From: Roseateles sp.
Lineage (GTDB): Bacteria > Pseudomonadota > Gammaproteobacteria > Burkholderiales > Burkholderiaceae_C
Direction: 5' to 3'
DNA: 50,176 nt
Assembly: GCA_016790285.1 (NCBI GenBank)
Contig: JAEUPJ010000026.1
Span: 1 to 50,176 of the forward strand
Below are positions 27,394 through 50,176 of the stretch, piece by piece (position 1 is the stretch's first letter; each line of letters begins with the position of its first letter). The translations under genes were made by a program, and so were the position numbers. The notes beneath the pieces were generated by a model that saw only the letters and a program-made list of their open reading frames with translations, was not told the origin of the DNA and did no database searches.

Positions 27394-30021
27394 ATGAACC
27401 CACGCACCCGGGCGCCGCTGCATGCTGCCGCCACCACCTCCCGCTTCGCCCTGCGCCTGACCGCCGCTGCCGCACTCGCCACGCTGGCGTCGGCCGCGCT
27501 GGCCCAGCAGTCCGCCCCCGGCACGCAGCTCGAGACGGTCGTCGTGACCGGTGCGCGCGCCTCCGCCGAGACCGCGCAGGCCATCAAGAAGAACGCCGAC
27601 CAGGTGGTCGACTCCATCGTCGCGGAGGACATCGGCAAGTTCCCGGACAAGAACGTGGCCGAGCTGCTGGGCCGCGTGACAGGGGTGCAGATCCAGCGCG
27701 GCAACGGCGAGGCGGGCACGGTCATCGTGCGGGGCCTGGGCGGCATCGTGACGTTGCTCAATGGTCGCGAGTTCTTCTCGGATGCCGGCCGCAGCCTGTA
27801 TCTCGCCGACGTGCCGGCCACCATGCTCAAGCGCATCGACGTCTACAAGACGCAGGAAGCCACGCTGCCCGAAGGCGGCACGGCCGGCGTCATCGACGTG
27901 CGCACCAACCGCCCGTTCGACTTCAAGAACGCACAGTTCGTCGTCAACGGCCGCATGGAGCACCGTGACAAGGCCGACGTCAACAACCCCGACCTCTCCG
28001 GCATGGTTTCCAACCGCTGGAAGACGGACCTGGGCGAGGTGGGCGCGCTGTTCGGCCTGTCCTACCAGCGCGGCAAGTACCACGACGAACGCGCCTGGGT
28101 GGGCGACCCGCTGACCTTCACGAACGCGGGCCGCAGCATCGTCGGCTCCGACGCCGTGGGCCGCGTGCTGGACCTGGGCGATCGCAAGCGCCTGGCCGGC
28201 AACTTCGCGCTGCAGTGGAAGCCCAGCGCGGACAAGGAGGTCTACCTGGAAGGCTTTGGCACCAGCATCGACCACCGCTACCAGCAGTCCTTCCTGGTGG
28301 CCGGCGCGCCCGTGTTCGAGCCGAACTCGGTGGTGACGGTCAAACCCGGCACGAACTTCCTGGACACGGTGACCAACACCAACTACGTGGGCTGGGGCTT
28401 CACCTCCACGCAGGCCAAGCGCGACCAGGTCACCAACGCCCAGGTCGCCCTGGGCGCCAACTGGGACGTGACCGACCGACTGCGCCTGTCCACCGAGCTG
28501 GCCCGCACCAACAGCCAGATCGATTGGGTCAACCGCATCCTGGACAGCGGCTACACGCCCACGAGCACCATCGCCAAGGTGCAGGACGGCGGCGGCTTCA
28601 TCGACTACCCCACGCTGGACCTGACCAACAAGGCCAACTTCCGCATCAACGGCGGCGTGGACGTGCGCGGTGAGCGCGAGGGCCACAGCACCGACTGGCG
28701 CGGCGACGCCACCTACGACATCGGCGACGGCTTCTTCCGCGAGGTCACGGGCGGCGTGCGCCTGGCCAAGCGCTCGGCCATGTCCATCAACACGAACATG
28801 CCCTGGCAGACGGGTTTCTCCGCCGTGGGTCGCTCGGCCGCTGATGCCAGCGTGGCCGACATCTTCTCGGTGTCGCCCGCGACCTGGGGCGACTACGGCG
28901 TCAAGCAGTACGTCTACGCTGACCGCGACTGGCTGCTGAACAACGGCGAGGCTTTCCGCAAGCTGCTGACCAACGGCAACGGCGCGCTCACCGCCTACGA
29001 CCCGATGACGCTGTTCGACGACACGGAGACGACCAAGGCCGTCTACGGCCGCCTGAAGTTCGGCTTCGACGCCGCGGGCGTGCCGGTCAGCGGCGTGTTC
29101 GGCCTGCGCGTGGTGCAGACCGACCAGGCGCTGATGGGCAACTCGCGCAATGCCGCCACGGGCGTCATCACGCCGGTCAACAAGGACACCTCGCGCACCG
29201 ACGTGTTGCCGATGCTGTCGCTGAAGGCCGAGTTCACGCCCAAGCTGTTCGGCCGCCTGGTCACCGGCAAGACGCTGGAGCGCCCGGGCTTCAACGCCTA
29301 CAACCCGGGCCAGACCATCACCCCGCCCGGCGGCGGCGTCACGTTCGGCACCATCTTCGGCGGCAACCCGGACCTGAAGCCGACCGAGTCGACCAACGTG
29401 GACGCGGCGCTGGAGTACTACTTCTCGCGCACTGGCTCGCTGACCGGCACGGTGTTCGAGCACAAGTTCAAGAACCGCGTGTTCGACCAGACCGTCTCGA
29501 CGACGATCAATGGCGTCAAGTACAACGTGACGCAGCCGATCAACGTCAGCAAGGCCAAGCTGCACGGCTACGAGCTGAGCTACCGCCAGTTCTACGACTT
29601 CCTGCCGGGCTGGCTGGGCGGCTTCGGTCTGGAGGCCAACTACACCTACATGACCGGCAAGCAGACCGACCCGAACACGGGCGCGGAAGGCCCCTTCCTC
29701 GGCCAGTCCAAGTCGGCCTACAACCTCGTGGCGCTGTATGAGCAGGGCCCGGTCTACGGTCGCTTGGCCTACAACTGGCGCGCCAAGTTCCTGGCCGAGA
29801 AGCCCTACCGCTCCACCGGCCGCGAGCTGTGGGTCGCCCCGCTGCGCACGCTGGACGCCTCCTTCGGCTACAGCATCAGCAAGCAGCTCACCGTGTCGGT
29901 GGACGTCACCAACCTGCTCAACCAGGCCTACCACGACTACTTCGACCAGACCCCGGCCCTGGTGCGCGACGTGCGCTACTACGACCGCACGGTGGGGGTG
30001 TCGGTGCGCTGGAAGATGTAA
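27394..30021 (+). CDS. TonB-dependent outer-membrane receptor, likely for arabino-oligosaccharides
   Basis: An 875-residue outer-membrane transporter. The ATG at 27394 gives a signal peptide ending near LASAALAQ (residue 38) and has CCGGAGA upstream. The TonB box-like stretch ETVVVTGAR follows at once. The plug domain (about 60-170) contains FPDKNVAELLGRVTGVQIQR and VIVRGLGGIVTLLNGREFF, the TIGR01782-type pattern found in many carbohydrate receptors of Proteobacteria. The rest is the 22-strand barrel, ending SVRWKM. Family knowledge: such receptors take up plant oligosaccharides using TonB energy. The following arabinan-degrading genes on the same strand suggest arabino-oligosaccharides as ligand. 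No SusD-like partner is present. Confidence 0.9.
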   Translation: MNPRTRAPLHAAATTSRFALRLTAAAALATLASAALAQQSAPGTQLETVVVTGARASAETAQAIKKNADQVVDSIVAEDIGKFPDKNVAELLGRVTGVQIQRGNGEAGTVIVRGLGGIVTLLNGREFFSDAGRSLYLADVPATMLKRIDVYKTQEATLPEGGTAGVIDVRTNRPFDFKNAQFVVNGRMEHRDKADVNNPDLSGMVSNRWKTDLGEVGALFGLSYQRGKYHDERAWVGDPLTFTNAGRSIVGSDAVGRVLDLGDRKRLAGNFALQWKPSADKEVYLEGFGTSIDHRYQQSFLVAGAPVFEPNSVVTVKPGTNFLDTVTNTNYVGWGFTSTQAKRDQVTNAQVALGANWDVTDRLRLSTELARTNSQIDWVNRILDSGYTPTSTIAKVQDGGGFIDYPTLDLTNKANFRINGGVDVRGEREGHSTDWRGDATYDIGDGFFREVTGGVRLAKRSAMSINTNMPWQTGFSAVGRSAADASVADIFSVSPATWGDYGVKQYVYADRDWLLNNGEAFRKLLTNGNGALTAYDPMTLFDDTETTKAVYGRLKFGFDAAGVPVSGVFGLRVVQTDQALMGNSRNAATGVITPVNKDTSRTDVLPMLSLKAEFTPKLFGRLVTGKTLERPGFNAYNPGQTITPPGGGVTFGTIFGGNPDLKPTESTNVDAALEYYFSRTGSLTGTVFEHKFKNRVFDQTVSTTINGVKYNVTQPINVSKAKLHGYELSYRQFYDFLPGWLGGFGLEANYTYMTGKQTDPNTGAEGPFLGQSKSAYNLVALYEQGPVYGRLAYNWRAKFLAEKPYRSTGRELWVAPLRTLDASFGYSISKQLTVSVDVTNLLNQAYHDYFDQTPALVRDVRYYDRTVGVSVRWKM

Positions 30022-30062
30022 GTCTGCAAGACCTTGCCAAGAGCGGGTGGGCGCCAGGCTGC

Positions 30063-30138
30063 GCCTGCCCGCCATTGCTTCGTGTCCCCCGGGCCGCTGC
30101 GCGTCCCTCCTCCTCTACCTTCGCAATGGCGGGCAGGC
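30063..30138 (-). repeat. Core-and-stem hairpin, copy 1 (reverse)
   Basis: Arms GCCTGCCCGCCATTGC (30063-30078) and its exact complement (30123-30138) enclose a 44-nt core. Read on the minus strand the core contains GAGGAGGAGG, a small hairpin CGC-GCA-GCG, and CGGGGGACA. The core is the same length as, and closely similar to, the core of copy 2, but the stem sequence is unrelated. It lies 41 bp after the receptor stop and could act as a transcript-end structure. The 55-nt spacer to copy 2 contains the further small dyad CTGGCT/AGCCAG. Confidence 0.85.
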
Positions 30139-30257
30139 ACATCCTGGCTTGTCCACCAGGGGCTTTCTAGCCAGCAAACCGATGCACCGAGAAGCAGGAG
30201 GGCGGGGAGGCCTGATGCGCAAGTGAAGGAGGAGGGCCGCGTAGCGGACCGGGGGAC
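30084..30257. repeat. 174-bp element with ~45-bp terminal inverted repeats
   Basis: The span from GTCCCCCGG at 30084 to CCGGGGGAC at 30257 reads as one unit with imperfect terminal inverted repeats of about 40-45 bp and a unique centre. A second unit of the same plan and nearly the same length (173 bp) occupies 50004-50176. The paired inverted layout recalls REPIN/BIME doublets or MITEs. No flanking direct repeat is visible; instead each end lies inside a longer hairpin (see 30063-30138 and 30194-30287). Confidence 0.75.
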
Positions 30258-30287
30258 ATGGAGCATCAGGCCTCCCCGCCCTCCTGC
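30194..30287 (+). repeat. Core-and-stem hairpin, copy 2 (forward)
   Basis: A perfect 25-bp stem: arm 30194-30218 (begins GCAGGAGGGCG, ends CCTGATGC) pairs with 30263-30287. The loop 30219-30262 is 44 nt and holds AAGGAGGAGG, the mini-hairpin CCGC-GTA-GCGG and CCGGGGGACATGGA. Its right arm ends 19 bp before the start of the following GH43 gene, so the structure would sit in that gene's leader. The AAGGAGGAGG is a perfect Shine-Dalgarno sequence, but no frame convincingly uses it. Confidence 0.88.
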
Positions 30288-30306
30288 GCCCAACCCACCC
30301 GCACCC

Positions 30307-31260
30307 ATGTCCGACCTGCTCCAGCCCCTGATCCCCCAGCGCGCCGACCCCCACATCAGCCGCCAGCCTGGCGGCCCTTACCTCTTCACCGCCTCGGTCC
30401 CCGAATACGACCGCATCGAGCTGCGCCGCGCCGACACCCTCGAAGGCCTGGCCACGGCCCCCGCCTTCGTCGCCTGGCGCAAGCCCGACACCGGCCCGGC
30501 GTCCGAGCTGGTCTGGGCGCCCGAGCTGCACTTCAACGAGGGCGCCTGGTACCTCTACTTCGCCGCCGCCCCCACCCGTGCGCTCGACGGCCTGGGCATG
30601 TTCCAGCACCGCATGTACGCGCTGCGCAACACGGCCGCGGACCCGTTGACGGACAGCTGGGAGTTCCTCGGCCCCGTCGACACCGGCCTGGACAGCTTCT
30701 GCCTGGACGCCACCACCTTCACCCACCGCGGCCAGCTCTACTACCTCTGGGCGCAGAAGGACCCGGCCATCCCCGGCAACTCCAACCTCTACCTGGCGCC
30801 CATGGCCACACCCTGGCAGCTGGCCGGCGCGCCCGTGCTGCTCAGCCGCCCGGAGTTCGACTGGGAATGCCGGGGCTTCCTCGTCAACGAGGGCCCGTCG
30901 GTGCTGCAGCGCCATGGGCGCGTCTTCATCAGCTACTCCGCCAGCGCCACCGACGAGAACTACGCCATGGGGCTGCTGTGGGCCGACGACGGCGCCGACC
31001 TGCTCGACCCGGCCGCCTGGCACAAGTCGCCCGACCCCGTCATGCGCAGCTGCGCCGAAGACCGCGTCTTCGGCCCCGGGCACAACAGCTTCACCACCGG
31101 CGCGACCGAGGACGAGGTGCTGCTGGTCTACCACGCCCGCACCTACACCGAGATCGTCGGCGACCCGCTGTGGAACCCCGACCGCCACACCTTCGTGAAG
31201 CCGCTGCGCTGGTCCGCCGACGGCATGCCGCTGTTCGGGCGGCCCTCCCGGCGCGATTGA
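30307..31260 (+). CDS. GH43 exo-alpha-L-arabinofuranosidase, probably cytoplasmic
   Basis: A 317-residue five-bladed beta-propeller of glycoside hydrolase family 43, closest in appearance to subfamily 26 (exo-alpha-1,5-L-arabinofuranosidases). Visible catalytic candidates are D14 (base, in QRADPHIS), D134 (pKa modulator, in SFCLDATTF) and E195 (acid, in LVNEGPSV). The ATG at 30307 begins MSDLLQPLIPQ, which is neither a signal peptide nor a lipoprotein signal. An earlier in-frame extension would run through the repeat. It would act on short arabino-oligosaccharides inside the cell, in contrast to the exported GH43s at 36585 and 48536. It lies directly downstream of hairpin copy 2. Confidence 0.85.
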   Translation: MSDLLQPLIPQRADPHISRQPGGPYLFTASVPEYDRIELRRADTLEGLATAPAFVAWRKPDTGPASELVWAPELHFNEGAWYLYFAAAPTRALDGLGMFQHRMYALRNTAADPLTDSWEFLGPVDTGLDSFCLDATTFTHRGQLYYLWAQKDPAIPGNSNLYLAPMATPWQLAGAPVLLSRPEFDWECRGFLVNEGPSVLQRHGRVFISYSASATDENYAMGLLWADDGADLLDPAAWHKSPDPVMRSCAEDRVFGPGHNSFTTGATEDEVLLVYHARTYTEIVGDPLWNPDRHTFVKPLRWSADGMPLFGRPSRRD

Positions 31261-49783: not shown

Positions 49784-49862
49784 GCCGGTTGGCTCGCCAG
49801 ATGAGCCTGGGGCGGCGGGAGAGGGGTGGGTAGCAGCTCACGACCCTGTGCGGTCCTCCAAA

Positions 49863-50003
49863 CCATCGAGTTCACAGCCTGAAAGCCGTCGTTCAACGGT
49901 TCGGTACAGAGGGCGCCGTAGGGCGGGTCAAGACCCGCCATCCAGATCCTCCTGTGCATCAGCTGGATGGACGCAGGCAGCGGGGCGGGCCTGATGCTCC
50001 ATG
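49863..50003 (-). repeat. 141-bp end repeat, inverted copy of 1-141
   Basis: Reverse complement of positions 1-141 with two differences seen. It includes the GGCGGGTCAAGACCCGCC near-palindrome (49920-49937) and the outer arm of hairpin copy 3. The copy ends where the conserved core begins, at GTCCCCCGG (50004). Confidence 0.85.
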
Positions 50004-50062
50004 TCCCCCGGTCCGCTACGCGGCCCTCCTCCTTTACTTGCGCATCAGGCCCGCCCCACTGC
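49977..50062 (-). repeat. Core-and-stem hairpin, copy 3 (reverse)
   Basis: Arms 49977-49997 and 50042-50062 pair over 21 bp with a single mismatch (C opposite A). The loop 49998-50041 is again exactly 44 nt, the reverse complement of the copy 2 core with few changes (CCTCCTCCTTTACTTGC at the right side). The stem shares the ten bases nearest the core with copy 2 (GGCCTGATGC), then diverges while staying paired. Confidence 0.88.
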
Positions 50063-50121
50063 CCGCTTGCGTGACGCCCGGCTTGTTCGTCGTGGAATCC
50101 TGCGGTGCCGCAGTGGGATAC

Positions 50122-50176
50122 GGGGTGACGCAATTGCGAAGGTAAAGGAGGAGGACCGCGCAGCGGGCCGGGGGAC
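50122..50176 (+). repeat. Core-and-stem hairpin, copy 4 (forward, cut by window end)
   Basis: The core starts at 50138 (GAAGGTAAAGGAGGAGGACC) and runs 39 of its 44 nt to the window end at CCGGGGGAC. The left arm ends GACGCAATTGC at 50137; the partner arm is outside the window. With copy 3 it forms a 173-bp unit (50004-50176) like the one at 30084-30257. The spacer contains CTGCGGTGCCGCAG, a small palindrome at about 50099-50112. Confidence 0.8.

Follow-up and report, generated by a model that had tools for sequence, protein, structure and literature searches.

The window analysed here, a stretch of 50,176 nt from Roseateles sp., carries two copies of one element, each with two hairpin arms on opposite strands. 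We propose, at a probability of about one half, that this element is a non-autonomous mobile extragenic repeat with two outward-facing hairpin arms, each of which acts as its folded core strand, probably in the form of RNA.

Two copies of a two-armed element

The first element (30043..30302) is flanked by a TonB-dependent receptor gene, which ends at 30021, and by a gene of glycosyl hydrolase family 43 (GH43), which starts at 30307; both were assigned with Pfam. It consists of an outer stem (GCGGGTGGGCGC, 30043-30054, and GCGCCCAACCCACCCGC, 30286-30302), two arms and a spacer, and its sequence can be aligned to other loci. Arm B (30059..30142, core strand minus), which contains the hairpin 30063-30138, is matched by our covariance model with an E-value of 1.2e-14; its conserved core with the apical mini-hairpin (30084..30112, minus) fits the core pattern with 0 mismatches. 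A spacer that is weakly conserved in the alignments (30143..30193) separates it from arm A (30194..30287, plus), a 25-bp perfect stem (model match 30199-30282, E 1.6e-17) whose core at 30229..30257 on the plus strand also fits with 0 mismatches. The second element (49840..50176), recognized from the alignment of extended copies and from a 141-nt identical overlap, has a TIR-like left end (ACGACCCTGTGCGGTCCTCC, 49840-49859) and is cut by the end of the contig. It continues in contig C3: window positions 50036-50176 and G000:C3:1-141 are identical over 141 bases, which places the contig break inside the element. Its arm A is found at 49977..50062 (minus, E 1.1e-17) and its arm B, on the plus strand, is truncated at the window end (50142..50176; partial match, E 0.0013).

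The first-pass annotation had listed three complete hairpins, each with a 44-nt core. All three are present in the window with cores of this length. The first two are the opposite-strand arms of one element, and the third, complete as a hairpin, represents arm A of the second element, in which the contig end interrupts arm B. A further correction concerns AAGGAGGAGG, which in hairpins 1 and 3 is read on the minus strand. The three window hairpins have 23, 25 and 23 Watson-Crick pairs over 25 stem positions, and their core strands fold as RNA with z-scores of -6.3, -8.3 and -7.0, with 0 of 200 shuffles equally good for each. The opposite strands give -5.7, -9.4 and -7.1. Since both strands fold about equally well, folding energy alone cannot tell which of them matters. 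The core pattern, allowing up to 3 mismatches, was matched 4 times in the window and 0 times in 100 shuffles of it.

A conserved internal loop between two freely varying helices

The conserved part of each arm is a purine-rich internal loop, with the consensus 5' ...RGTNAAGGRGGAG (apical helix) CGGRGGACAYG... 3', which is held between two freely varying helices and shows covariation within the loop itself. In distant genomes both helices, outer and apical, have other sequences, and the apical one also varies in length, so that the fixed loop of 44 nt that had been described holds for the window hairpins and not elsewhere. Arm length, as delimited by the covariance model, is about 72-103 nt, with one arm of 150. 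Three source-genome arms contain, always at the same point of the core (GGGGGAC / ACG), a related secondary hairpin module of about 68 nt: at about 142-210 in L001, in the left arm of L002 and to the right of the core in L006.

The initial proposal of a conserved core on covarying stems, kept by selection for structure, was borne out by an alignment of 38 arms, mostly from the source genus. Changes on both sides were seen in 23 of the 31 stem pairs, and the covariation score was 0.595 compared to 0.139 in shuffled alignments, a value reached by 0 of 500 shuffles. Paired cells amounted to 95.7%, where shuffles gave 70.8% and slid controls 30-43%, figures that are favoured by the structure having been drawn from the same sequences. 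In further copies the stems likewise stay complementary.

A larger set of 159 distinct arms was obtained with a filter that demanded part of the core; most of the core letters that this filter left free are also nearly invariant. In this set, the loop pair -13/+10 is A-T in 85 arms, G-C in 69, G-T in 4 and C.T in 1. The pair -5/+4 is A.G in 130, G.A in 14, A.A in 10, C.G in 5 and G.G in 0, and the pair -6/+5 is G.G in 154, A-T in 4 and A.G in 1. The arms of L243 and L244, missed by the core filter, also have A with T at -6/+5. As far as sequence comparison can tell, these loop pairs suggest that the two sides pair antiparallel and in register, and they argue against a quadruplex as an obligatory form. 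The GGNGG present on both sides of the apical helix in most arms, and the G at -6 and +5 in 154 of 159, could raise the suspicion of a two-tetrad G-quadruplex whose central loop would be the apical hairpin. Such a structure is, however, extremely improbable, since the arms with an A-T combination at -6/+5 (4/159; L243, L244) do not have four GG tracts within the core, and the complete lack of G.G at -5/+4 (0/159) is better explained by antiparallel pairing.

Stem mismatches reveal which strand folds

If the arms served as duplex DNA, or were shaped by a symmetric mutation process, G:T and A:C mismatches should be equally frequent on the core strand. We counted 281 G:T and 20 A:C stem mismatches on this strand, besides 144 of other kinds, in 153 arms from 36 genomes; this tally leaves out the named-record loci L020-L036 and the loci not assigned to one of the 36 genomes. 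G:T was in excess in 34 of the 36 genomes, with one tie and one opposite case (G040, a single arm), and prevailed in 116 arms against 2, the two types being equal in 35. A wider and less clean tally, in which some arms occur twice and one chance match is included, gave 269 G:T and 26 A:C. Most of the 153 arms had been gathered with a covariance model that itself rewards pairing. The arms gathered by the core pattern alone gave 48 G:T and 1 A:C (40 arms, that is 46 candidates minus 3 with inserts, 2 with a one-base stem shift and 1 chance match), indicating that the bias was not produced by the model.

As a control, we used 193 other palindromes, 14 bp or longer, taken from the same DNA, which gave 110 G:T and 113 A:C on an arbitrary strand, a comparison that is weak alone, as 1:1 is expected anyway. 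The four terminator-like hairpins among them that could be oriented gave 0 G:T and 1 A:C. A mixing test is more informative in this respect: 24 of the 60 control palindromes with at least two such mismatches had all of one type, where random mixing predicts 24.5, and 109 of 147 mismatches belonged to the majority type, where 108.4 are predicted. Control palindromes thus mix the two mismatch types at random, and the strand preference belongs to the arms and not to other palindromes.

The G:T to A:C ratio was then broken down by context, with genes called by a codon-position heuristic and no annotation, as also for the placement counts given below. It was 80:3 for arms sense to tandem genes (36 arms), 58:3 for antisense arms (31 arms), 62:0 between convergent genes (31 arms), 5:1 between divergent genes (3 arms) and 45:4 where the context was unclear (24 arms). 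The equal bias in sense and antisense arms indicates that the constraint is independent of the direction of the neighbouring genes. Judged from these substitution patterns, one single strand per arm is under selection, whichever way the neighbouring genes run.

The asymmetry speaks against a protein-binding DNA cruciform, which had been among the first candidates. It bears equally on the notion that the palindromes are functionless and are kept perfect by a mutational process only, such as quasi-palindrome template switching or arm-to-arm conversion. Some arms do look as if they had been replaced wholesale between orthologues (L080/L085), and arm-less copies exist. Such a process would nevertheless predict strand symmetry, where 281:20 was observed, and it would have to account for the control palindromes, which mix at random, and for loop covariation between non-canonical partners. 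We consider it very improbable.

Arms are paired outward and located at gene 3' ends

The typical unit consists of two arms on opposite strands, facing outward, with their cores about 100 nt apart. Among the close arm pairs (less than 260 nt), 52 of 53 are outward (minus, then plus), and a smaller count gave 35 of 36. The one exception has a flipped arm: in L019:1318-1531, arm A is inverted and both cores lie on the same strand. With the strict core filter, 105 of 172 distinct arms have a close neighbour and 67 of 172 lack a partner within 260 nt; arms that stand alone, or whose partner has diverged beyond what the filter accepts, are thus common. The suggestion that the element inserts at the tips of pre-existing hairpins finds no support as a main process, since all but one of the 53 close pairs face outward. 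The bare hairpin with the same stem that it had led one to look for was not seen, by eye, at either of the two orthologous loci examined.

Elements sit at gene 3' ends and avoid divergent gaps. Element-bearing gene pairs were convergent in 28 cases, tandem in 37 and divergent in 2 (n=67), compared to 11, 48 and 16 for control gaps of 90-600 nt (n=75). The corresponding Fisher p-values are 3e-4 for convergent and 9e-4 for divergent pairs, with the reservation that copies and orthologues are not fully independent. A terminator was found at 19 of 81 gene ends facing an element and at 13 of 131 control ends; as the latter include ends inside operons, we do not claim from these counts that the element targets terminators. 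In the window and in the further copies inspected by eye, no T tract was found directly after the arms.

This placement raises the question of whether the element is simply a cis-acting signal at mRNA 3' ends, a bidirectional terminator or an exonuclease barrier, maintained by the host like enterobacterial REP. The 3'-end location and the depletion between divergent genes agree with such a role. So does the gap before the GH43 gene, where the element is found in a place in which 9 of 11 orthologues carry an intrinsic terminator, and where genome G498 has, by eye, a terminator hairpin lacking its T tract beside another copy. By contrast, no T tract follows the arms inspected, terminators are still present at 19 of 81 element-facing gene ends, and the constraint is just as strong on arms that run antisense to their flanking genes, which is awkward for a purely cis function in mRNA. 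Taken together, we regard this explanation as rather improbable.

Copies are multiple and patchily distributed

The core pattern with up to 3 mismatches has 12 matches in the source genome (5.88 Mb) and 0 for a reversed control, and the covariance model finds 14 arm matches at E 0.01, partial ones included. Two of the 12 (in C3 and at the end of C79) fall inside the 141-nt contig overlap and are probably one arm, so that one arm was probably counted twice in both numbers. The strict pattern was found in 6 of 200 genomes of the family, source genome included, and in 17 stretches of named genomes; viral contigs had 0 strict cores. As an order-wide probe it proved too strict, matching the source genome only among 300, and was replaced by the covariance model. 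At E 1e-4 the model detected arms in 31 of 120 relatives, representing 21 of 101 genera (source genome included in both), with 31 matches in G009, 23 in G011, 16 in G027 and 16 in G005. In the order, 11 of 250 genomes were positive, including the source; two genomes of one other family had 18 and 15 matches, and five of another had 2 to 6. In the class it was 3 of 185, again with the source: one genome outside the order had 12 matches, and G114, from the source family, had 1 weak match. The support that the first-pass annotation had asked for, many copies in this genome and in other Burkholderiales with mostly intergenic placement, was obtained. The family is absent from the majority of genomes and abundant in a small number of them, as expected of a mobile repeat.

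Near-identical copies also exist: three loci of one genome share 97% identity over 352-359 nt, and G009 has many such copies. By eye, the G009 loci L089-L107 contain long mosaic repeats around the arm, with GATAGCT terminal repeats, and most of them also contain a large hairpin of the GTGTGCGGCAGGGCC type with a conserved core of its own. A Roseateles-type element at L025, on a short contig of a cyanobacterial assembly (Nostoc sp. CMAA1605 contig188), is probably due to contamination.

Orthologous loci differ in element content and keep stems paired

The GH43 gene following the first copy has a close orthologue (at least 83%) in 11 of 20 genomes of the genus, source included. In 9 of these 11, inspection by eye found no element, and the gene is preceded by an ordinary terminator made of a GC hairpin with a T tract. 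The source genome has the element and no terminator, and the copy in G498 belongs to a different element subfamily, suggesting that insertion in this gap probably took place twice. The aspS locus was matched in 19 of 20 genus genomes, most of them with other neighbours; the same neighbour gene is kept, by eye, in G507, G502, G508 and G493. In G507 and G502 the sequence in common with the element is limited to CTGGGTGGG, G493 has no element, and G508 keeps an apparent outer end and the spacer, with both arms gone. We had taken CTGGGTGGG for a copied host flank and dropped this reading, as G508 makes a deletion scar the simpler one.

Stems at loci shared by descent changed together. Eleven locus pairs were compared, three of them from one three-way orthologue group. 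One pair (L069/L084) gave no arms, and the remaining 10 provided 17 arm comparisons. In these, 446 stem pairs were the same, 61 were changed on both sides and still paired, 28 had a one-sided change kept by G-U, 35 were broken, 5 were changed on both sides and unpaired, and 10 fell in gaps. Arm pairing is doubtful in L013/L019, L053/L073 and L227/L257; without these three locus pairs the numbers are 387, 39, 23, 18, 4 and 0, respectively. One-sided broken changes are therefore not rare (18, or 35 with the doubtful pairs), and gene conversion of whole arms could account for part of the compensation. L080 and L085/L145 come from two genera and have the element in the gap between one and the same pair of genes, which by their look presumably belong to the homoprotocatechuate pathway; the A.G and G.A states of its two arms are exchanged between them.

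Relation to known repeats and RNA motifs

No match at the gathering threshold was obtained with Rfam in the window, and the sole match among 8 other loci at E-values up to 1 was to a microRNA family, with an E-value of 0.51 that does not reach the threshold of that family. The element family was not found in the open-licence literature and catalogues that we searched.

The closest resemblance is to REP, BIME and REPIN sequences, which are likewise extragenic, multicopy and made of hairpins in inverted pairs, as in 52 of 53 close pairs here. REP sequences are also placed 3' of genes. Extragenic palindromic repeats are usually described by their conserved stems, whereas here it is the internal loop that is conserved, and the stems are free to change with compensation. 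REP have been described as bearing a GTAG or CGTC tag at one end (PMC3733652). The feet differ between the arms compared here, and by eye no GTAG or CGTC tag stands out among them. With MITEs the element shares its dispersed short copies and, in one subfamily, its TIR-like ends: by eye, CGRCC...GCGGTC ends occur in one Roseateles subfamily and other ends in G009, none being common to all. No target-site duplication was recognized by eye in the aligned copies, and a search covering the Y1 family found no parent transposon.

Such likenesses lead to a further explanation, in which the arms would be single-stranded DNA hairpins recognized by a transposase or a replication-linked enzyme, the element being a REPIN-like mobile unit with no RNA part. 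It would fit the outward pairing on opposite strands, the strand bias independent of gene direction, the TIR-like ends and the dispersed near-identical copies. Evidence on the enzyme side is less favourable. HUH transposases of the Y1 type, the one candidate family checked, were matched in 7 of 8 genomes and had no match in G011, a genome with 23 arm matches, and 17 Y1 loci (56 kb in total, near flanks only) contained 0 arms at E 1 or better, so that no RAYT link was found in this sample. Moreover, pairing is largely preserved in both arms of old orthologous copies, something that mobility alone would not need. We judge this explanation possible, although unlikely.

Three other systems deserve comparison, each as far as its published description goes. 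The Beta-proteobacterial repeat element BRE is described as usually intergenic, GC-rich, about 90 bp long, present in up to 29 copies, occurring in Comamonadaceae and tandem at some loci (Hot et al., 2011, PMC3110155). Our element resembles it in being betaproteobacterial, usually intergenic and GC-rich, and is set apart, by that description, in that close arms are inverted in 52 of 53 pairs where some BRE loci are tandem (PMC3110155). The Burkholderiales-1 RNA motif, a candidate RNA listed without an Rfam accession (Weinberg et al., 2010, PMC2864571), comes from the same order, a likeness by description alone. Either of the two could turn out to be related to the element. The intrastrand triplex motif of E. 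coli, given as CCCTCTCCC...GGGAGAGGG...GGGTGAGGG (Holder et al., 2015, PMC4666352), is similarly a G-rich single-strand fold in multicopy repeats; it differs, going by the published motif, in its CCCTCTCCC-type pyrimidine tract, which by eye is absent from the cores here.

A 78-bp tandem repeat of 2.4 copies was observed at L002:1157-1344 (G000 contig C40), with a TGGCGAAGGA...TGAGCC motif on variable stems. It is a different module from the arms. Our guess is that it represents a second hairpin family, perhaps BRE. Its 11-base motif is not enriched in the genome, with 8 matches compared to 19 for the reversed control.

A proposed orientation-independent signal

The sequence data call for a strand-specific fold of every arm, and for an explanation of why each strand carries one. 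We propose that each arm forms two helices of free sequence, the first of them long, on either side of a conserved purine-rich internal loop that is held by non-canonical pairing. In the simplest view, with the arms on opposite strands, a transcript running either way, or either exposed DNA strand, would contain one correctly folded arm, and having one good arm on any strand that is read would make the signal independent of orientation. RNA would be supplied by transcripts running past gene 3' ends, and single-stranded DNA by replication or transposition. The active form is most likely RNA derived from such read-through, and its internal loop may be bound by a protein. Our leaning towards RNA comes from the 3'-end placement and from the kind of loop, in which G.A and G.G type pairs between free helices resemble what we take to be a protein-binding RNA site. 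The DNA alternative is kept alive by the lack of dependence on gene direction. No promoter, transcript or binding protein was seen. Mobility, which would be provided in trans, is suggested by the patchy distribution, the 97% identical copies, the G009 copies and the probable independent arrivals at the GH43 gap. Any function at gene 3' ends is putative as well.

In these elements a non-canonical internal loop is conserved and both helices drift yet stay paired, which is the reverse of the usual repeats with conserved stems. The signature of this drift, G:T against A:C, shows which strand folds and amounts to a simple sequence test. It separates strand-specific RNA or single-stranded DNA elements from symmetric DNA cruciforms, and could be tried on further orphan palindromic repeats. 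The conserved loop, held between free helices, offers a ready bait for the putative binding protein. It is tempting to speculate, and we do so tentatively, that the element might represent a new class of folded signal, probably RNA, in which an antiparallel purine-purine loop is carried by an orientation-independent mobile pair and serves a putative trans-acting protein or a catalytic activity, with a range that covers several Burkholderiales families and one genome from beyond this order.
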